Positions 1 to 50,832 of a DNA stretch of 64,000 bases are shown here, piece after piece. The stretch is taken from positions 4,452,866 to 4,516,865 of the forward strand of contig JAJLRJ010000011.1 in assembly GCA_024195265.1 (NCBI GenBank), given 5' to 3'. The translations under genes were made by a program, and so were the position numbers. Positions within the stretch are counted from its first letter, which is position 1; the number at the start of each line of letters is the position of its first letter. The stretch comes from Dendrophyllia cribrosa. Lineage: Eukaryota; Cnidaria; Anthozoa; Scleractinia; Dendrophylliidae. The notes under the pieces were generated by a model. The model ran no database searches and was not told the origin of the DNA. It was given only the letters and a program-made list of their open reading frames with translations.

Positions 1-972
1 AAAAAATGTAGCTTATTTTTTTTAACTCCCCAGATCAATGTTTGCAGTTAAAATGCTTTTGATTCTCCTGCATAGGTTCAAGTTGGACACCCCTGGGGGA
101 CTCTCGTATAAAAAACAACGGGGGTGCTCGTTGTACCTTTAGGTGCTAAAATCCAAAATGACTGCTGTTTAGAGTTGTCATGGTAGCCTTTATAGGGGCA
201 TTTTTGTGCGGTCACCTTTTTGTGCATCATCGGGTCATCCCCGGTGTAATATAATTTATGATTTTCTTTTGTTCATCCTATTCTTATTTAGATTGTGCAG
301 TTCCAGAAAATATCCATACTCCCCCCACGGAAGGTTTTTTGTTTAGCACCCCCCCGTCCCCCCAGGAAATTCCAGTTTAGCTTCATACTTTGCTTCTAAA
401 ATATTGGCTTTTAAGACCCCCCTCCCCCTAGGAATTTCCAATGACCTTCAATGGGGTGGGTATGGATTTTTTCTGGAACTACACATTTTGGATTGCATCA
501 TCAGTATTGTTTTGCTATTGTGATGTCAGCTGTGAGATATTACATCGGGGATGAGCCTCATCATCTTTTCAAAAATTGTCAATGCCAGTTACATGTAATT
601 TGTTGTTTTGGAATAATTTTTATTGGTACCACTCAGGCTAGGTCAAAATGAATTGAGTCATGCCCACAAAACAAAATTTTGTTACCTTTTGTGGGTGTTA
701 TGAAAATTTCTGATGAGCACCACCTTTAACTTTTATCGTGTATAAATAAAGGATGTTGTTTGTTTGTTTGAGTACACATATCTGTTCAAGGGACTTTTTA
801 AGTATCAGAATGATAGTAAACACTCTATATTGCAAATAAATATTTCAAATGAAACTAAGCAATTTCAAAATCCCAAACTGGTAGGAGGAAAGCCAATTAT
901 TATTGGCTAATAAATACAAACGTGATGAAGGAGTTGAATTCACTGTTGTTATTTCTGTTTTGTGAAAGCAAG
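1..972. other. Non-coding; upstream intron or flank of the first gene
   Basis: No convincing exon is seen. The stretch has C-runs near 320-430 and an ATAAATAAAGG-type tail followed by TTTG repeats at about 740-770, which resembles the 3' end of a short retroelement. It is probably intron of the gene whose exons follow. Confidence 0.4.
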
Positions 973-1045
973 AAACAGAGGTGAAAGAATTACAAAAACT
1001 GTGCAAGAAGAAGGAGGAAGAGGAGGAAGCCTTTCAAATGTTGAA
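973..1045 (+). CDS. Candidate coiled-coil exon of unidentified gene
   Basis: The stretch reads openly as a Lys/Glu-rich helix containing a KKKEEEEEAF run, typical of a coiled coil. It is bounded by an AG at 971-972 and a good donor GTATGT at 1046. It ends with two bases of a codon (phase 2), which joins in frame to the exon at 2267 that begins with one base. I do not recognise the family. The 5' part of the gene lies outside the window or in exons I cannot identify. The acceptor is the weakest point because another AG lies a few bases away. Confidence 0.45.
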
Positions 1046-1403
1046 GTATGTTAAATTATTGTTTGTTATTTTTCACTTCATTTTAGTTCTAAAATAGGTG
1101 TGACTCAAAAGTAAGGAAGTGGTGAGGTAAATCCTTCAAGGCCAGGAAAAAGTCTTGAGGAATATATATTTTGGGAAAGAATGAAAAAGAGTCAGGTAAT
1201 TTAAATCAAATCTAAAACACCAACAGTAAAGTCACTGACTGAATAAGGCTGCTCTGCAAAGAAGCTTTTCATTTCTTTTCATAAATGTGTATTTTATGTC
1301 ACTATGTAAAATGTTGAAACAAATGCCCACAATAGAATTAATAAAAAAAAACGTTTTTATATAACCATAAAACATATGTACTCTTTACATAATGTACATG
1401 CTT

Positions 1404-1604
1404 TATTAAAGAAATAAAAAACGTGCCGAGTGCATTATTGAGTTATATAAGCACGCGGGAATTTTTAAGAACACGAGAGAAGTGCAGAGAAGCATGAGCC
1501 CAAGGCGAGTGCTTCTTGCACTTCTCGAGTGTTCTTAAAAATTCCCAAGTGCTTATATAACTCAACAATGCACAAGGAACAAGTTTTTTTATTTCTTTTA
1601 TAAA
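1404..1604. mobile_element. Palindromic MITE
   Basis: The two halves are inverted copies: TGCATTATTGAGTTATATAA near 1431 is matched in reverse near 1553-1572, and the inner arms share GGGAATTTTTAAGAACAC. The arms extend outward into an AAAGAAATAAAAAA motif on both sides. There is no ORF. It lies in the intron between the first two exons of the first gene. Confidence 0.75.
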
Positions 1605-2266
1605 ATAAAAACGGTTATAATGAACCTTACGTCACGCGCGCGCTTTATCGAGTTATAATGAACTTGGTTTAACCAATCATAGCGTGCGCATTTCCTTGAG
1701 CATTTTATAACAAGAAATAATGCATACTGTGAGCACAAGCTTGCAAAAATTTGAAACAGTTTGTTGATGAAAACAAGAAATAATAAAAAAATTGTTTGGA
1801 CACCATGAAATGCTAAAATAATTCTTGGCAAGAAAAGTTCTGTGCACAAAGTAAGATAATTGAAAGGATACGTTTTGCATATGGTAAAATAATGATGGAA
1901 AAGACAGCTTGAGGAAGCGACCAGTTGGGGGAATTTGAACTTTAAAAGTCAGGGAATCTCTGATTTCTTTGGAAGCCATATATAAAATATACAGTGTTAT
2001 CCTTATGATTATTATGTTCACCCTTGGCCTTGAGGAAAACAGATGTTTTGGATTTACACTTTTCCTTTTACTTCCTTAAGATTGTGAAGTCTACCTCAGG
2101 GGTGGGGCTAAAAGTAAATGTGATTATTAGAGGATTGTTCATGTTTCTTGTCTTCTTTTCTAATTATTGCCTGAAACTTGCGTACACCCTTTTTTTGTTA
2201 CATGCATATGTTCAGTGTAATAACAAGACCATACTTCTGTTGTTATTAATAATATATTTTATGCAG

Positions 2267-2466
2267 GGAAAGGAGCCAGGGGAATTTCTTCAGACTTATG
2301 AGGGATAGGCTAAAACAATGCAACCCAGTGAAGTACTCGCATAGGCCAACTCTTGATAATGATCTCAGAGTTCTTGCTGCTGCTTGCAAACACATTCAAC
2401 CATCTGATGAAACTGATCTGTGTGCTTTAATAAATGACTACCGCAACACCATACGTCAAAAGACAG
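2267..2466 (+). CDS. Second candidate exon of unidentified gene
   Basis: The exon opens after a TTTTATGCAG acceptor and reads about 66 residues of a compact, probably helical segment rich in Leu, Arg and Asn (contains LINDYRNTIRQKTG near its end). The start phase (1 base) fits the donor of the exon at 973-1045. The donor at 2467 is CAG|GTCTTT, weak after the GT, but it is the only GT giving the phase needed for the terminal exon. If the donor is not used, the frame continues 12 more codons to a stop at 2502-2504, giving a shorter alternative C-terminus. Family not recognised. Confidence 0.5.
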
Positions 2467-2888
2467 GTCTTTCACTTCATCTTGTAGAGATTAAAAATGT
2501 TTAGTGTTATTTGATTGATGTTGATTTTATCATATGCCTTGCATTTTATGAAGTGGCGTTTTGCATCAGAATGTTCTGACATAATTCCTGTGGCTTTTCA
2601 AACCAGATTACTGGAAAATTTTTATTATCTCTTTTCCTGGTTACATTACCATAATCCAAGACAATGAAAGGAAAACATGAATTAAAATGGCTGTAAAATA
2701 AGAATACAGTGTTTGGTTATGAGACAAGAAGTAAGATACCGTAACTAATGTCCACAAATAGGATAGGTCAAACTTAACAAAAGTTACTAGACTTGTAATC
2801 TGAAGAAACACATGAAGTCAACTTCTCTGACCATATAGTGATTTTTTTTAGTCAAGTGAATGATTGACTGATATTGATTGATTTGCAG

Positions 2889-3652
2889 GAAATACATGTG
2901 CAAGTGTGTTCAACAGCAACAGTCCGCAATATTATCCATATCATGTTGGGCAGGTCCAAAGTTATCACCCTCAAAGAGCTCCAATTCCCTCACTGATGAG
3001 CCAACTTTCACCCTCTCCTACTGGGCTGAGAATGGGAAGCCCTGGTGCTAACAGTGATTCCTGGAATGCATTTGGACCTTACCCAAGATTTGCTGACAGT
3101 ACTGGAAGTATCTTTAGTCCAAGAAGTTCAGTAGGTAGTCATTCAAATGTCCGAACACCTTGTCCTGTTCAGTGGTCTCCTTGGAATGGTCAAACAGTAA
3201 ATGCACCACAGGGTGACTTCCATGGAATGAGACCCACTCAAAGACAGGCACTACAGATTAGTCGTCCAGATTATCGGTTTCCATTCAGTTCACCCATTAG
3301 AGCTTATCACACAAACCAGAGGCGTGAAAATCGATACAGCCCAGTAGCACATCAGCATCATGATCACCGAAAAGGAAAATCAAGAAGGGAATTAAGTTAC
3401 AATTCCAAATCATCCAAGTTTTCAAAAGGCGAGATATGGAGACAGTCACTGAAAACGCGCACAGTTGTAGCAGAAAAACAACAATCACTGCAAGATAAAC
3501 GAAGTACTACATCCCAACCTCCCCCTTTAGTACCCCAAGCAACATCCACCCCAAATGATGAAAACAGTGATTCTCAAGTGAATGTTGTGGACGTAGATGT
3601 GGAGTCACCCAACAAGGATTCCAGTGGCTTGACTGAAGCAAAAAATAAATGA
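2889..3652 (+). CDS. Terminal exon: Ser/Pro/Gln-rich tail of unidentified protein
   Basis: A long open frame starts right after a TTTGCAG acceptor and runs about 254 codons to a TGA. It joins in frame to the exon ending at 2466. Composition is disordered: an N-terminal Tyr/Pro/Gln/Ser part with SPSPTG and SPR motifs, a middle basic His/Arg/Lys part (HHDHRKGKSRR), and an acidic end with a VDVDVESP motif. SP and TP sites suggest phosphorylation by proline-directed kinases. The order coiled coil, helical segment, disordered tail suggests a nuclear or cytoskeletal scaffold protein, but the family is not recognised. Confidence 0.7.
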
Positions 3653-6676: not shown

Positions 6677-7431
6677 TTAAAGCAAGTATCCACAATGCTT
6701 AAAGTAATTGATGCAGTCTCTTATATTTATCATACTTAATGCCTGCATGCTAGGTTTCATCAATTTGAACAATTCTATGGATTCTAGAACGTTGTCTGAA
6801 AGTTTAGAAGGATAAATTCGTCCTCCTTGACTAAAGGGAGCATATGTACCGTACGTTTGATAATAGGACAATCACATGACTTTTGGAGGGCACAAATAAA
6901 CTATATGCCCGACAAAAGTCATGTGATTATCATTATTATCAATACACAAGGCCAAATCGTACAAATTCATTTAATAAGAAAAAAATGTTTAACAGAAACA
7001 GGGCCGTAAATGCGTTTGTAGCCCGTCAAATTCAATATCGCCCGCCACTCACGCGTGTTTTCTCGAAAGCAGTTTCTTATTTGGCCGCGTATATTGATAA
7101 TAATGGCGAATAATGCCACATACGCCGCCATGAGTAACACGAACAACTCTTGAGATTGCCCTCGGTCCTTCTCCGTTCAAATACATGCCAACTATCCGTC
7201 TTATTTCCTTACTGAGAGGTCTACCTGGCCTGAACTCCCGACCTAGAGCATTATAACCAATCGGTCTGAACATTGGTAAAATGCGTTGAAATTTTCAAAT
7301 CTCCCTTTGAACTTTGCAATCTCTCTTCAAATTTCCCAGAACACACTAAAATGCCCAAATATGGTAAACAAAACTTGACACATTGTTTGAAATCTCGGAA
7401 TTTACTGGTCACGCGTGACGGAGCACCGCTG
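6677..7431 (-). pseudogene. Decayed Tc1/mariner-like transposase with paired-type HTH
   Basis: On the minus strand, 7049-7273 encodes about 74 residues with a paired-box-like helix-turn-helix (GRPLSKEIRR motif followed by a Gly-x-Ser-rich second helix), the N-terminal DNA-binding module of Tc1-type transposases. Downstream, 6677-6740 encodes a C-terminus ending HCGYLL, very like the HCGYIL end of the intact transposase at 26137-27192. The catalytic middle is absent, so this is an internally deleted relic. Just beyond the N-terminal end lies a TIR finishing at 7431 that matches the MITEs at 4174 and 4974, so those MITEs were probably moved by this kind of enzyme. No left TIR was found. Confidence 0.6.
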
Positions 7432-21582: not shown

Positions 21583-21869
21583 TTACATTGTTTGAAAACT
21601 GTTTATATAGTTAAAAATAAGGGGTCTGGAACCAAGATTAAGAAAAACAATCTCAACAGTAATTTAATAGTACGGACTTTCAGTCCTACGACAGCTTCGA
21701 AGCTATAGCTAATAAAACATTAGTTTCTCACTGCTGACGTTGACCTTTAAGGAAGGCTGTAGTTCTTGAATTAACAAAGTCTCCTTGATTTTGCAGTGAA
21801 AGTCCGTTTTGCCGGACGCTAAAATATCGAAATGATCCCAATTAATTAATTTTGTTATCCCATAATCCA

Positions 21870-21997
21870 ACTAAATCCAGAGAAGACAATCTCTCCACCT
21901 ATCTCCGTAAACTAAGGAATGATAAAATTATTGATGACGTGACATTCCACAAGATTTTACCCAGCGGATCTTCTCCTGGCTCTGGTTGTTCAAAACG

Positions 21998-22030
<33 letters not shown>

Positions 22031-23380
22031 CAGTAGATAAGTATCAACAAAATCCATTGTGTTATCCGCTGGATAGTGATTTATTCGCTGGATAGCTGGA
22101 TACCTGGTGTTTTGTATGGCCTGCCAAAGGTTCACAAGACCGGATGCCCTTTCCGCCCTATTGTTTCCTCGGTTAACACCTACAACTACAATTTTGCTTC
22201 TTACCTTGTTAGCATACTTCAGCCGATTTCCACCAACCAACATACTGTTAAGGACTCTTTTAGTTTTGCAGATTGGGCCAAAACGTACAGACATAACAAT
22301 GAAATAATGTGCTCTTTGAATGTCAGTTCACTCTTTACAATGTACCACTTCACGAAATATTGTCTTCCTGTTCCTCCGTCATTGCCTCGTTCTGTTTTAC
22401 AAAAATTATTAGAATTTGCCACTAAGAGGAGCCATTTTATATTCGACGGCCAATACTACGACCAGATTGATGGTGTAGCCATGGGTCGCCATAAGGCCCA
22501 GTTTTGGCTAACATTTTCATGTGCCACTTCGAAGAAAAATAGGTAATGAACGGTAGAGTCTGTCCTTCACTTTGGTATAGATATGTTGATGACACGTTCA
22601 CCATGTTTGACAGTAAAGACACTGCTAATGAGTTTTTACGATATTAAAACAGTCGTCACAACAGTATCAAATTTACTATTGAATTTAAAGCCGTTTTTAG
22701 ACATCCTTGTCAAACGACGCCCCAACAAAACTTTCATGACATCCATTTACCGGAAGAAGACATTAACAGGCCTCTACACTAAATGGGATTCATTTACACC
22801 TTGCAAGTACAAAATTAATCTCATCCGCACACTCACCTATCGTTGCCTCCGAATTTTCTCATCGGCTTCTTTACTGCAATCCGCTCTTAATGATCTTAAG
22901 AAACTGCTACAAAATGGTTACCCTCAAGGCATTATCAAGTACAACATTAAAGATGTTTTGAACAGAAATAAAAACAAGCCAAACAACCCCGTTCCTACAG
23001 TTCCCAAGAAGGATATCATTATCCTTTTACCTTACTTAGGTCTTCACAGCAACCACGTCACCAAATGTCTTCAATTCTGTGTATGCAAATTCTATTCTTG
23101 CATCAATCTCAAAATTATATTTCAGAACACAAGCCGCGTCAAATCCTTCTTTCCATACAAGGACCGCCTGAACCGCTCTCAAATGTCTAAAGTTGTCTAC
23201 AAAGCTGGTTGCTGGGATTGCGATCAATTCTACATAGGGAAAACAAAACGACGACTTCATGACAGAAAAACTGAACATTTCGAGGCCCTCACTAAAAGTG
23301 ACCATACCATAGATCAGCCATTGCTGATAATATCAAAATTACTGGTCACAACATTAATTGGGATCATTTTGATATTTTAG
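21870..23380 (+). pseudogene. Penelope-like reverse transcriptase/GIY-YIG ORF, broken
   Basis: Reading frames in order: about 21880-21977, an N-terminal RT part (LRKLRNDKII) ending at a MITE; 22109-22546, GLPKVHKTGCPFRPIVSSVN (RT motif with palm entry) through DGVAMG; at 22573-22640 in another frame RYVDDTFTMFDS, with the YVDD catalytic motif at 22582-22593; then 22680-23330 with LDILVKR, FMTSIYRKKT, the thumb, and the endonuclease segment containing VVYKAGC and QFYIGKTKRR, matching GIY and YIG. At least two frameshifts and one insertion make it inactive, yet catalytic motifs are preserved, so the loss is fairly recent. Confidence 0.75.
21978..22108. mobile_element. MITE inserted within the PLE RT frame
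   Basis: Palindromic GGATAGCGCTATCC-rich stretch with an inverted GGTTGTTCAAAACGTGGATA-like end. Removing it joins a frame ending in SGSSPG to one beginning VLYGLPKVHK, the expected RT continuity; CTGG occurs on both sides as a possible duplication. Confidence 0.6.
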
Positions 23381-23784
23381 CGTCCGGCAAAACGGACTTT
23401 CACTGCAAAATCAAGGAGACTTTGTTGATTTAAGAACTACAGCCTTCCTTAAATGTCAACGTCAGCAGTGACAAGCTGATGCTTTATTAGTTGCAGCTTC
23501 GTAGAACTGACAGTCCGTACTATTAAATTACTGTTACAGTGGAACCATTCGAACCGGGACACCCTGAACATTTTTAACCAATCAGAACGTTATTTGAGAA
23601 CAAAGGATAGCAACCTTTTTCGCCAACGGACCAATGACATCGACGAACGCGAACAATAGTTTTCAACAATATTTGAAAACGCGGCAACCGTCACGACTAG
23701 ATGCGGACCTCTCAGAAAACATATCCTTGTTTTGATTGGTTACTTTTCTGTACTTTCGATCCTAAATTTTGAAGCAAACATCAA

Positions 23785-24232
23785 AAGCTATGGACGTGGA
23801 TCGTTCTCAAACACTTATATTTTTTTTGAATTGAAAAAAGTTATTCCTCGCTATAGAAATTATAAAGAAGGTATAGGAAACGTAAAGACAAAAATTGAAA
23901 CACAACAAACCTTTATTTTCCCTAATTTATACAAATATAAAACATGAACTGTTCAGCGCACGTAGACGCAATACTGAAGTACAATATACATCGATACGCT
24001 AAAATCTTCCAAAAACAAACGACAGCTCCCAATCAGGAGATTTATACATAAGGATTTCTACAATGAGAAATAAAAAGACGATCTGTTCGGCGCCAGGACA
24101 CTACAAGAACACATTTACATTTGCGCGCCTAAATCTTTCGATAACAAACGGTAGCTCGTAATCACGATCTTCATCCATTGGAACTTTGTTGCCGAGTGCT
24201 TTCTTTAGAAGCATCAGATCTTTGTCTAGGGC
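23785..24232. other. Left non-coding part of the 4-kb transposon
   Basis: AT-rich DNA between the left TIR and the stop of the SAM/zinc-knuckle gene. Two related stretches (CGCTAAAATCTTCCAAAAACAAACG near 23997, CCTAAATCTTTCGATAACAA near 24128) suggest an old internal duplication. No ORF. Confidence 0.5.
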
Positions 24233-25096
24233 TTAACGATCAATGTATTTGATCTGATTTTGCTTTCGTAGGCGCGGCCTCATGACTGCAAAAAATCTTG
24301 AGGTGGCTCTCTGCCGTGCACTTGTGAAAACTTCTAGGTCATTGTTGGCTTTTGTAACTTTTTTTTCTAAACCTTTTATTAGAGCCTTCAACTCTGACAG
24401 TTCTTTACTGAGTTCAGGATGTTTTGCTGGCAGTTTACAAGAATGAACTCCCTGACATGGTCCGTTTTTACATTTCGGCTTGGTATGCCCAGGTTGATGA
24501 CAAATTGAGCATAATTTGGCGCGCTTGTCTGCAATTGCATCAAAGTCGTCTATTTCCTTTTTACGGAGGGCCAGCTGATTCTTTGCACTTTCTAACTGCA
24601 CCTGTACTAGTTGGACATCCTCGGTAAGCTGAACTTGATGTTTCTCCAGATAACCCGTAGCAGGTGGCACAGTCGCTGTAGGTAAATTCGCACTTGATGT
24701 AACCAGTGCCGAAAGCGCGCCGTTACACCGTTCATCGTTGTAATTGTTACTCTGTGTTGCCGTAAATGGAGTAAAAGCCCGTCTTTCAACTGTAGGGAAA
24801 AGCTCGCGTGGTGGCAAACTAGCCTGTGTACATCCACCTGATTCCTTCGCTTCTTTGAGATTATTTAGCTCTGCCAGCAGAATACGTTTCTCCGCCAGCA
24901 AAAGCTTCTGCGGGGTTGGGAAAAACGCGTCCAAATCCTCTTTTTGAATGTACTTTAAGGACTGTTGTGTCATGAAACCCCTGACCTCAAATTCTTTCGC
25001 TAGCCGTTCCAAATTTAAACCATTAGATATGCTCTTTAGCCATTCAAAAACTTCAGAGGACATTTTTGACAAGAAAACAGCACAACTCACGGTCAA
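24233..25096 (-). CDS. SAM-like, coiled-coil, CCHC zinc-knuckle protein (transposon cargo or accessory factor)
   Basis: Intact, intronless, 287 residues, or 276 if translation starts at Met12. Residues about 14-80 read as a SAM-like helical domain (VFEWLKS, LAKEF, DLDAFF with following helix LLLAEKRILL). A Ser/Thr/Pro linker follows, then a coiled coil (about 150-182), a perfect zinc knuckle C196-x2-C199-x4-H204-x4-C209, a second coiled coil (about 227-262) and a basic C-terminus (RPRLRKQNQ). Zinc knuckles bind single-stranded nucleic acid; SAM domains self-associate. Lying between the TIRs beside the transposase, it is probably an accessory DNA/RNA-binding factor, but a captured host gene is possible. 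The protein family as a whole is not recognised. Confidence 0.7.
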   Translation of the reverse strand: MTVSCAVFLSKMSSEVFEWLKSISNGLNLERLAKEFEVRGFMTQQSLKYIQKEDLDAFFPTPQKLLLAEKRILLAELNNLKEAKESGGCTQASLPPRELFPTVERRAFTPFTATQSNNYNDERCNGALSALVTSSANLPTATVPPATGYLEKHQVQLTEDVQLVQVQLESAKNQLALRKKEIDDFDAIADKRAKLCSICHQPGHTKPKCKNGPCQGVHSCKLPAKHPELSKELSELKALIKGLEKKVTKANNDLEVFTSARQRATSRFFAVMRPRLRKQNQIKYIDR

Positions 25097-25313
25097 CTCA
25101 CACCAGTCAAATGACGGACTAAAAATAGCGTAAGGTCAACAAAAAAGCGTGAGATATGTACACTATTATGTAAATACGGTGATCCAATTAGCGTTTGAGC
25201 GCGCGCGACCGATTTTTGACAGCTGTCTGTTTTGCACGCACGGATCAGCTCTTCAGCTGAACAACAAAGTCGCCAATTTTCATGAATTTTTATTTGCAAA
25301 AACGTGTCTAAGA
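25097..25313. promoter_or_regulatory. Divergent intergenic region in the transposon
   Basis: Only about 217 bp separate the start of the minus-strand SAM/zinc-knuckle gene and the plus-strand HIRAN-like gene, so both promoters must lie here or in overlapping leader DNA. It has a GC-rich GCGCGCGCGACC motif near 25199-25210 and no clear TATA box that I can assign. Confidence 0.45.
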
Positions 25314-25495
25314 ATGTCTCACTTTACTGTTCATAACGCGGTTGTAAAAGGACATCATGTGTATGGTTACCACGTCGATGTTGGGGATATCTATGTTTGC
25401 AAGTGCGAATTTGATAACATTCGTGACCGCACAGCAGTCGCTATTTGCAGCTTGTTGGGCACGTTCCCGCTGGATTTTGTAGTGCGTTATTCCAG
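25314..25495 (+). CDS. HIRAN-like protein, exon 1
   Basis: The ATG at 25314 opens a frame reading HNAVVKGHHVYGYHVDVGDI, then FDNIRDRTAVAI, then TFPLDFV. The order G-x-x-[HY], acidic turn, E/D-N-x-D-R-x-A-V-A-I, V/L-G-x-x-P is the HIRAN fold signature (N-terminal domain of HLTF/Rad5, which binds DNA 3'-OH ends) as found in small stand-alone proteins of marine invertebrates. The stop two codons later overlaps a donor AG|GTGATA; splicing to 25662 stays in frame. It is oriented opposite to the other two transposon genes. Frame is open upstream of the ATG to 25149 but without homology. Confidence 0.6.
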
Positions 25496-25661
25496 GTGAT
25501 AAACCGATATTCAGGCAAGATACAAATCTTCTGGTGAGTTCCTCTTCACAAAACATGCTTCATAGCTTCATAGCTTCATAGATGAAATTCAGTTACGCTC
25601 AGTAGTTTCATTTGACTGAAAGATCATACTCACATGCAACAACCCAATAATTTTTTTTCAG

Positions 25662-25863
25662 CGAAATAACATCATTGCCTGAACCTAGTCGACCACCCTG
25701 GCCATCCACCTGGTCCCAAGGAGGAGGAATCATTATTCCTTGCAAGTACCATGTTTACTGTGCCCGTGAAGATGAACGCGAAGTTCAACAGATTTTGCAA
25801 GCAGATATATTTTCTATAGGTGGTTTTCATGTTACGTCATCGCCGCCATGCTGGTGGACATAA
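25662..25863 (+). CDS. HIRAN-like protein, exon 2 (end overlaps a MITE)
   Basis: Begins after a polypyrimidine TTTTTTTTCAG acceptor; phase 2 joins exon 1 in frame. It reads a Pro/Trp linker then GGGIIIPCKYHVYC and a charged helix REDEREVQQILQ, the expected strand and closing helix of the HIRAN-like family (usually I/V-P-C-x-Y). Compared with relatives the stretch between the G-x-x-P block and the I-P-C strand seems short. The last about 16 residues are encoded by the MITE at 25816, so the native C-terminus was probably displaced. Confidence 0.55.
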
Positions 25864-25962
25864 ACAATAGTTCTCTCATTAGCTCCTTTTGTTCGTCCAC
25901 CAGCATTTGTTCGTTTCACTATTGTTATCTATGTCTCTAGAGATTGGTTGCAAACCACCTAT
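25816..25962. mobile_element. MITE, ATAGGTGGTTTTCA family, copy 1
   Basis: Starts ATAGGTGGTTTTCATGTTAC and ends GCAAACCACCTAT; the inner arms are ATGCTGGTGGAC and GTCCACCAGCAT. Nested in the 4-kb transposon at the end of the HIRAN-like gene. The same family occurs at 50674-50832. Confidence 0.75.
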
Positions 25963-26136
25963 TCCCAACGGATACATTCAGTTGAACTAGTACACAGACG
26001 TACATAGACAGAAGAAAGCTTGTTGTCATTAACTTTATTTTACCGAAATTACAATGTAAAATCGTCAACAGCATTTATACATGTACCATAGGCATAAAAG
26101 TATTTTTATTACACACAGCTCAGTTAGTGAGACGCA
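25963..26136. other. 3' region between HIRAN-like gene and transposase stop
   Basis: Short convergent intergenic region. It contains a TTTATTTTACCG stretch on + (an AATAAA reading on the minus strand) downstream of the transposase stop, suitable as poly(A) signal for the minus-strand gene. Confidence 0.4.
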
Positions 26137-27192
26137 TCACAATATGTAACCACAATGTCTGAAAATATTGATTGAATTACGGGCGGTAATTTGTTCACAT
26201 GCTAAGAAAATGGAATACTCTGTTTGATTGCCCGCTAGTTCTTGATGGCAGTTCAAGAAAGCTTTGATTTCTCGAAAACAATACTCGCACGTATTAAAAT
26301 GAGGGGAATATGGCGGTTGAAACAATAAATGCACTCCGCATTCCGCCAACATATTTCTCAGAACTGGTTCGGTGAAGTGGCCGTGATGGAAACCACAGTT
26401 GTCCATAATAACAGTGTCGCCGCGTTCCAGAAGCACTGACCCGTCTGCTTTGGTGATATTTAGCGCTTCCTCGAAGAAAAACAACAATTCATTTCCGTTT
26501 GATGCGCCCTCTATGACATTTACATAGTCTATTCCTTGCAATGAGTGCAACAGGTTAATTGTATAATTAGCGTTTGACGCGTACCTTTGAACTTCGTACG
26601 CTGGCTGACCAAGTGGAGCATTTCCATAACGTCGGTTCATGGTTGTTTTTGTAACACTACTTTCGTCAAAAAAATGAATTGATGTGGGAGGCAAATCGCT
26701 TACTTGATCAAGATAAAAATTAGTGTGTTCAACATTCAATGCTGTTTTTGCTTCAAGCGGCACCTGCTGAATCTTTTTTTTTGTCATGAAAAGGTCTTCT
26801 CTTAAACATTTTGAAATCGCTGGCTTTGATGGCAAGTCAACAGGATGAACAATTCCATCAAGGAGAAGTCTTTGCCGCAGTTCTGAGCTAGTTATACTGG
26901 GCTTACATAGTTTTTCGTTCTCTAAATATTGAATCACATCTCCCACTATTTTCGATCGCGGAGGTGCTGCTCTTGTGGCCGGCAGCGATGAGTTGTTTAC
27001 ATCGTAGTCCCTCAAAACGTTTCGCACAAAGTGCCGACTACTTTTCACTTCAGTTGCGATCCTCTTTTGGCTCATTCCGGTGTGATGCAAATCTAAAACA
27101 TGTTCTCGAAGCAGTTGAGAATGTCTGCGTCCATTATCGTATATTCCACCTTCATGATTCACTCTTACTTGTATATTTTGATAAAAAGCCAT
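26137..27192 (-). CDS. Tc1/mariner-superfamily DDE transposase (D-38-E)
   Basis: Intact 351-residue intronless ORF. N-terminal HTH at about 21-64 (GRRHSQLLREHVLDLHHTGM, then a second helix with SQKRIATEV), a linker, then the RNase H-like catalytic core: D176 in IHFFDES, D264 in VIMDNCGFHHG, E303 in PPYSPHFNTCEYCF. The DNCGFHH and YSP-x-x-N-x-x-E motifs are classic for Tc1/IS630 enzymes. Thirty-eight residues separate D264 and E303, versus 34 in Tc1. It cuts and pastes the element at TA targets. Its start lies about 140 bp inside the right TIR. Ends HCGYIL, like the relic at 6677. Confidence 0.9.
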   Translation of the reverse strand: MAFYQNIQVRVNHEGGIYDNGRRHSQLLREHVLDLHHTGMSQKRIATEVKSSRHFVRNVLRDYDVNNSSLPATRAAPPRSKIVGDVIQYLENEKLCKPSITSSELRQRLLLDGIVHPVDLPSKPAISKCLREDLFMTKKKIQQVPLEAKTALNVEHTNFYLDQVSDLPPTSIHFFDESSVTKTTMNRRYGNAPLGQPAYEVQRYASNANYTINLLHSLQGIDYVNVIEGASNGNELLFFFEEALNITKADGSVLLERGDTVIMDNCGFHHGHFTEPVLRNMLAECGVHLLFQPPYSPHFNTCEYCFREIKAFLNCHQELAGNQTEYSIFLACEQITARNSINIFRHCGYIL

Positions 27193-27331
27193 AGCAGAGC
27201 GGAAACTGTCGCAGTGCAGGTGATTCTGTTTACTTTGCTGTTTACGTCTCTTATACTTTCTTTATAATACCGCTGAATAATATGTGTTCAATTATAAAAA
27301 AAATTCAGTGTTTGGAAAAGATCTACGTGTA
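27193..27331. promoter_or_regulatory. Leader region of the transposase gene
   Basis: A short stretch between the transposase ATG (minus strand) and the right TIR. A TTTATAATACC on + near 27260 and AATTATAAAAAAAATTC near 27291 give A/T-rich candidates for a core promoter on the minus strand; none is a clear TATA box. Confidence 0.3.
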
Positions 27332-27581
27332 TTGATGTTTGCTTCAAAATTTAGGATCGAAAGTACAGAAAAGTAACCAATCAAAACAAGGATATGTTTT
27401 CTGAGAGGTCCGCATCTAGTCGTGACGGTTGCCGCGTTTTCAAATATTGTTGAAAACTATTGTTCGCGTTCGTCGATGTCATTGGTCCGTTGGCGAAAAA
27501 GGTTGCTATCCTTTGTTCTCAAATAACGTTCTGATTGGTTAAAAATGTTCAGGGTGTCCCGGTTCGAATGGTTCCACTGTA

Positions 27582-50600: not shown

Positions 50601-50673
50601 GTAAGTTTTTGGATGCAATGTACATGATCGTATGTATATGATCTAATGTTTATTGCATATGCAACTGAACACT

Positions 50674-50832
50674 ATAGGTGGTTTTCACGTTACGTCACGG
50701 CGGCCATGTTGGTGCACATCTACAAAGGAATTTTAATGAACTTCTTTTGTTATGTGCACCAACATGGCCGCCATGGCCTTTGTCATTTGAATCCCACAGG
50801 ACTGAAGGTCACGTGAGTGAAAACCATCAATA
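50674..50832. mobile_element. MITE, ATAGGTGGTTTTCA family, copy 2
   Basis: Arms ATAGGTGGTTTTCACGTTAC and TGAAAACCATCAATAG; inner arms ATGTTGGTGCACAT/ATGTGCACCAACAT with GGCGGCC/GGCCGCC. Same family as 25816-25962. Confidence 0.8.

Follow-up and report, generated by a model that had tools for sequence, protein, structure and literature searches.

In a 64,000-nucleotide stretch of the Dendrophyllia cribrosa genome (the window; contig JAJLRJ010000011.1, positions 4,452,866 to 4,516,865) we identified a Tc1/mariner-type DNA transposon of the cut-and-paste kind, the complete form of which is predicted to have three genes. The outer two, a SAM/zinc-knuckle gene on the left and a transposase gene on the right, are on the minus strand, and between them a HIRAN-type gene with two exons occupies the plus strand. 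Elements of the Tc1/mariner group are typically portrayed as having a single gene, with an enzyme that suffices. We consider it reasonably probable that the two partner proteins of this element assist end pairing and the joining or repair of 3' ends. The copy in the window spans 4043 bp, and the limits assigned to it in the original prediction (23537-27579) proved exact.

Assignment to Tc1/mariner follows from a TA duplication, a DDE/D triad within a DDE_3-type domain and a bipartite paired-like domain. The ends, expected to be inverted repeats of about 248 bp, are identical at 248 of 248 bases and have TA on both sides, as anticipated, and the 351-residue DDE transposase is indeed open. Chance open reading frames were rejected as an explanation, since no stop-to-stop frame exceeded 209 residues in 300 first-order Markov sequences of matched composition, compared to 374 for the transposase frame. 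The transposase matches DDE_3 (PF13358) and PAX (PF00292), both above the curated Pfam cut-offs. A protein search found 429 relatives, 120 of which are listed, those with names coming from Oculina and Porites, both stony corals. The 38 residues between D264 and E303 are common to all 86 aligned transposases of at least 320 residues, among which the catalytic residues are kept in 84 and 83 (the two aspartates) and 85 (the glutamate). A PF00292 match was present in 19/19 transposases scanned, including that of the window, and a profile of these 19 matched the Pax-8 paired domain over both subdomains (E 2.3e-25) and Sleeping Beauty (E 1.9e-5). The paired domain of the window transposase is identical to Pax-8 at 32 of 124 positions; two relatives from outside the window (P0155 and P0077) have paired domains nearer to Pax-8, at approximately 39-41% identity. 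A decayed Pax-type transposase relic of a more distant family lies elsewhere in the window (6680-7294, minus strand; PAX 33.5 bits in one piece).

The 627-Mb genome was searched with the terminal inverted repeat (TIR), yielding 63 candidates, 40 of which were scored and listed, so that the counts given here are lower bounds. Among the matches listed, at least 31 were at 96% identity or more and nine were partial (74-76%). The 31 represent at least 15 complete copies, together with a single end that belongs to a truncated deletion derivative. Four copies are long, and all four carry the three genes in one order, as the original prediction had anticipated for full-length copies; the window, C21 and C3 copies are mutually 99.5-99.7% identical, and the long copies lacking nested inserts span 3906-4043 bp. 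Of the other 11 complete copies, all of them short (909-1532 bp), three are internal-deletion derivatives and eight are foldback-like. In these eight (L038-L045) both ends best match the transposase-side end, and the interiors contain repeat units of approximately 120-230 bp in both orientations.

The first partner gene lies on the transposase strand, as originally described. Its open frame in the window copy is cut to 276 codons by a premature stop (24233-24235, codon 277), whereas the full frame has 320 codons and is open in a sister copy. The frame past the stop is still conserved (63 bits to the SAM/zinc-knuckle family profile), and the relatives, 35 of which were found by protein search, extend approximately 45 residues beyond the end of the window protein. 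The predicted SAM head has the five helices of a SAM fold, and a putative CX2CX4HX4C zinc knuckle is present in the window protein and in 21 of the 23 relatives of at least 285 amino acids. The second partner gene is divergent from the first and predicted to be spliced, again as described; the splice originally proposed (CCAG|GTGATA) was wrong, being an artefact that lies inside coding sequence of the sister copies, and the frame is broken. The predicted donor in the sister copies corresponds to window position 25533/25534 and would give a HIRAN protein of 137 amino acids. Its tentative assignment comes from relatives matching PF08797 (P0161 at 30.9 bits against a cut-off of 24.7, three others at 20.3-23.1); the window gene scores 17.2 bits with the damage masked, and a sequence search of the PDB gave no HIRAN match.

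We propose that the transposase uses its paired domain to bind the long ends, which it would then pair and cut. The SAM/zinc-knuckle protein, modelled as a SAM head followed by a coiled-coil hairpin carrying the CCHC knuckle, may form an oligomeric nucleic-acid-binding scaffold that helps to unite the two ends, and the HIRAN protein may bind exposed 3' ends and steer their joining or repair. The accessory system of three genes envisaged in the original prediction is partly supported, and the end protection, targeting or repair that it attributed to the partners are functions they might have. We advance more tentatively the full picture of a three-protein transposition machine, in which a Pax-type DDE enzyme, an end-synapsing scaffold and a HIRAN 3'-end binder would act together with insertion restricted to TTAA.

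The partners could instead act against the host: either protein, or the two together, would counter silencing or regulate transcription of the element. SAM domains are frequent mediators of protein contacts in chromatin and signalling, the 250-bp stretch from which both partner genes diverge (25064-25313) would suit a regulator, and the fold checks gave nothing favouring a DNA-joining fold. The zinc knuckle and the HIRAN domain nevertheless both point to nucleic acid, and no chromatin-targeting domain was present among the Pfam matches; we regard a role against the host as possible, on the unlikely side.

A further explanation is that the partners are passengers, host genes captured by one element and carried without a role. 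Most of the listed Pax-type transposases have no detected partner, and a host-like gene within the window (961-3652) has the C-terminal domain of the SAM/zinc-knuckle partner. The genome was searched with the HIRAN exon of one relative (11 matches, all 22 candidates scored), and the 9.9-kb regions around the matches outside the long copies were scanned with profiles of the three families. Five matches fell in the four long copies, the window copy being matched in two pieces, and six elsewhere (L058-L063). The original prediction took partner genes lying mostly outside TIRs as a sign of chance cargo; three of these six loci (L058-L060) hold all three genes in the arrangement of the window, where SAM and HIRAN genes diverge and the transposase shares the strand of the SAM gene. 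Their HIRAN genes are 36-41% identical to the query, so order and orientation have been kept at considerable divergence, which argues against passengers. All three trios are decayed, with fragmented frames and missing parts. A 152-bp inverted pair (93%) surrounds the trio at L060, and no clear window-like inverted ends were seen in the 9.9-kb regions of L058, L059 and L061. The three-gene order is common to the four long copies and these three loci, which suggests that the trio is a conserved unit and not chance cargo. Within the TIR and HIRAN searches, the element thus passed the refutation test set by the original prediction. An idea that arose from a four-protein result, that HIRAN was a recent addition of one subfamily, was overturned by the same search. 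HIRAN was found in none of ten 9.9-kb control tiles at round-number positions (four elsewhere in the genome and six in parts of the window beyond the element, two of these overlapping); one tile alone (W0) had a SAM-type match, to the host-like gene, together with transposase matches, to the relic.

Proteins from other genomes may also link the genes. Taking equal contig size to mean the same contig, which is our inference, 4/35 SAM proteins share a contig with one of the 120 listed transposases and 1/35 with a HIRAN protein. The null expectation for the transposase coincidences, computed on 118 of the 120, had a mean of 0.58, with four or more in 41 of 19999 runs. One such pair (P0031, a SAM protein, and transposase P0069; contigs of equal size, 3,496,128) has an antisense HIRAN upstream of the SAM start. 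Across five linked pairs the identities run in parallel (r 0.89; 4/120 permutations as high). Retention of the complete CCHC knuckle by 21 of 23 long SAM relatives likewise speaks against idle cargo, as does a deficit of amino-acid changes among the four long copies. Their coding sequences differ from the majority at 26 positions, 13 of which change an amino acid or create a stop, compared to 78% expected by chance (P = 0.0016; 0.0036 with one shared change counted once). The deficit is seen for the SAM gene alone (9/18, P = 0.008), and the transposase has 3/6 such changes. Within the four long copies the genes taken together therefore show a sign of the purifying selection sought by the original prediction, and the HIRAN gene, with two changes in total, has too few for a separate test. 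Altogether, we consider it improbable that the partners are passengers.

Several observations weigh against partners that assist transposition. The selection test draws on 26 changes, of which the SAM gene contributes 18. Only one of four HIRAN relatives exceeds the Pfam cut-off, and fold prediction for the HIRAN protein failed (pLDDT 47). Of the remaining HIRAN loci, L061 has a transposase and lacks a SAM match within its 9.9-kb region, whereas at L062 and L063 the regions of this size gave neither a transposase nor a SAM match; read by eye, these last two appear to be host HIRAN genes, and they count in favour of passengers. The control, at ten tiles, is small. The trio may not be universal, given 429 transposase and 35 SAM relatives. 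Among proteins on contigs longer than 20 kb, just 1/37 listed transposases shares a contig size with a SAM protein and 5/6 SAM proteins match no listed transposase's contig; with so few shared contigs of this length, many relatives may lack the partners or have ones that escaped detection.

Read against its sister copies, the window copy is damaged and not intact, because it has the premature SAM stop, lacks 10 nt of HIRAN exon 1 that are present in 3/3 other long copies, and carries an insert resembling a miniature inverted-repeat transposable element (MITE) in HIRAN exon 2. HIRAN relatives accordingly match the window gene in two frames. Neither the C21 nor the C3 copy has the insert, and related sequence occurs at 50672-50765. 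The first proposal, that of a three-gene transposon both intact and self-sufficient in the window, has the identical TIRs and open transposase in its favour; comparison with the other long copies refutes it on these three lesions, and it is hardly credible. Under the assisted-transposition model, the window copy could still encode its transposase and would require the partner proteins from other copies.

Table 1. Features of the transposon in the window and its long copies in the genome. Positions are those of the window unless a contig is named.
Feature	Position	Strand	Remarks
Left terminal inverted repeat	23537..23784	+	248 bp, begins CAGTGGAACC; identical to right end
Right terminal inverted repeat	27332..27579	-	248 bp
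TA target duplication, left copy	23535..23536		inside TTA...TAA
TA target duplication, right copy	27580..27581		flank of right end
SAM / coiled-coil / CCHC zinc-knuckle gene	24104..25063	-	full frame 320 codons; 276 in window copy
HIRAN-type gene, exon 1	25314..25533	+	frame broken by 10-nt deletion at ~25442/25443
HIRAN-type gene, exon 2 up to insert	25662..25817	+	from comparison with sister copies
MITE-like insert in HIRAN exon 2	25819..25959		145 nt relative to sister copies; borders ambiguous
Pax-type DD38E transposase	26138..27192	-	351 aa, open; D176, D264, E303
Long copy, window	23537..27579		4043 bp; three genes, partners damaged
Long copy, C21	C21:27872104-27876009		3906 bp; stop in SAM gene; change at invariant transposase residue
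Long copy, C3	C3:10497771-10501677		3907 bp; all frames open: SAM 320, HIRAN 137 as spliced, transposase 351
Long copy, C17	C17:21464432-21474091		9660 bp; other inserts interrupt; one cuts SAM gene start

All 15 complete copies lie in TTA...TAA with TA on both sides. This setting is far from chance, because 501 of the 4858 TA dinucleotides in the window lie in TTAA. A paralog of the window insertion site, at 21612-21846, has 88.5% identity to it and a single 9-nt gap away from the junction; with one TA retained, the two align gap-free over the junction, a result that fits a 2-bp target duplication. The paralog is not a perfect empty site because its own bases at the junction are TG. For two of the 15 insertions (the C3 copy, L032, and L038), joining the flanks with one TA kept gives continuous frames, of 112 and 126 residues. 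At approximately 21600-23480 a retroelement-like 3' region is present twice, one copy containing the transposon and the other being the near-empty site; by eye the region reads as reverse transcriptase plus GIY-YIG-like, and the one frame of it that was scanned gave no Pfam match. In the flanking frame of the C3 copy a P-loop-like motif can be discerned by eye, and this frame may be part of an element of the virus-like or Polinton type. The host-like gene at 961-3652 (plus strand) appears spliced; a coiled coil is followed by sequence that matches (6e-11) the C-terminal domain of the SAM/zinc-knuckle family and then by a proline-rich exon, the exons having been placed by eye.

We compared the element with described systems. 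Intruder, the DD38E/IT family of Tc1/mariner, shares the 38-residue D-E spacing and likewise occurs in a cnidarian, one being known as a host, and its long form has TIRs of 100-272 bp, similar to the 248 bp found here; its elements are mostly 1.5-1.7 kb with a single ORF (open reading frame) and a GRPR motif, whereas the present element spans 3906-4043 bp and has three genes (PMC7731502). The window transposase contains no GRPR string. Mariner elements of algal viruses resemble the present element in encoding a transposase plus two extra proteins, an endonuclease and a methyltransferase or Fanzor1, between TIRs with TA duplications; they are single-copy, whereas here the partners are SAM/zinc-knuckle and HIRAN proteins of a multi-copy element in an animal genome (PMC3627910). 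Kolobok lineages are likewise animal DDE transposons that retain lineage-specific accessory proteins (nucleases, a helicase or KolX), although they duplicate TTAA rather than TA and use a transposase of another superfamily (PMC9587614). The Pax paired domain (PDB 2k27, 1k78, 6pax and 1pdn) is matched by the transposase, but here it is joined to a DDE enzyme; Paired-like transposases have earlier served as the outgroup in a Pax tree (PMC4901127). Relatives of the HIRAN-type gene match PF08797, one of them above the cut-off, the profile of the HIRAN domain found in HLTF (PMC4666394); the element's HIRAN is a small stand-alone protein and putative DNA binder. Our literature search, which did not cover Repbase, found no publication on the combination of a Pax-type transposase with SAM/zinc-knuckle and HIRAN proteins. 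Three-gene Mariner elements with other partners, DD38E spacing and Pax-like transposases are already known, and the partner combination appears to be new.

A layout with two partners that stays fixed despite HIRAN identities of approximately 40% offers a test of whether Tc1/mariner enzymes depend on helpers encoded by the element itself. The association of Pax-type transposases with a strict choice of TTAA and host-like relatives of the partners bears on the origin of animal paired-domain genes. Should the host gene at 961-3652 also derive from this lineage, the Pax paired domain and a second host protein of animals may both trace back to these transposons.

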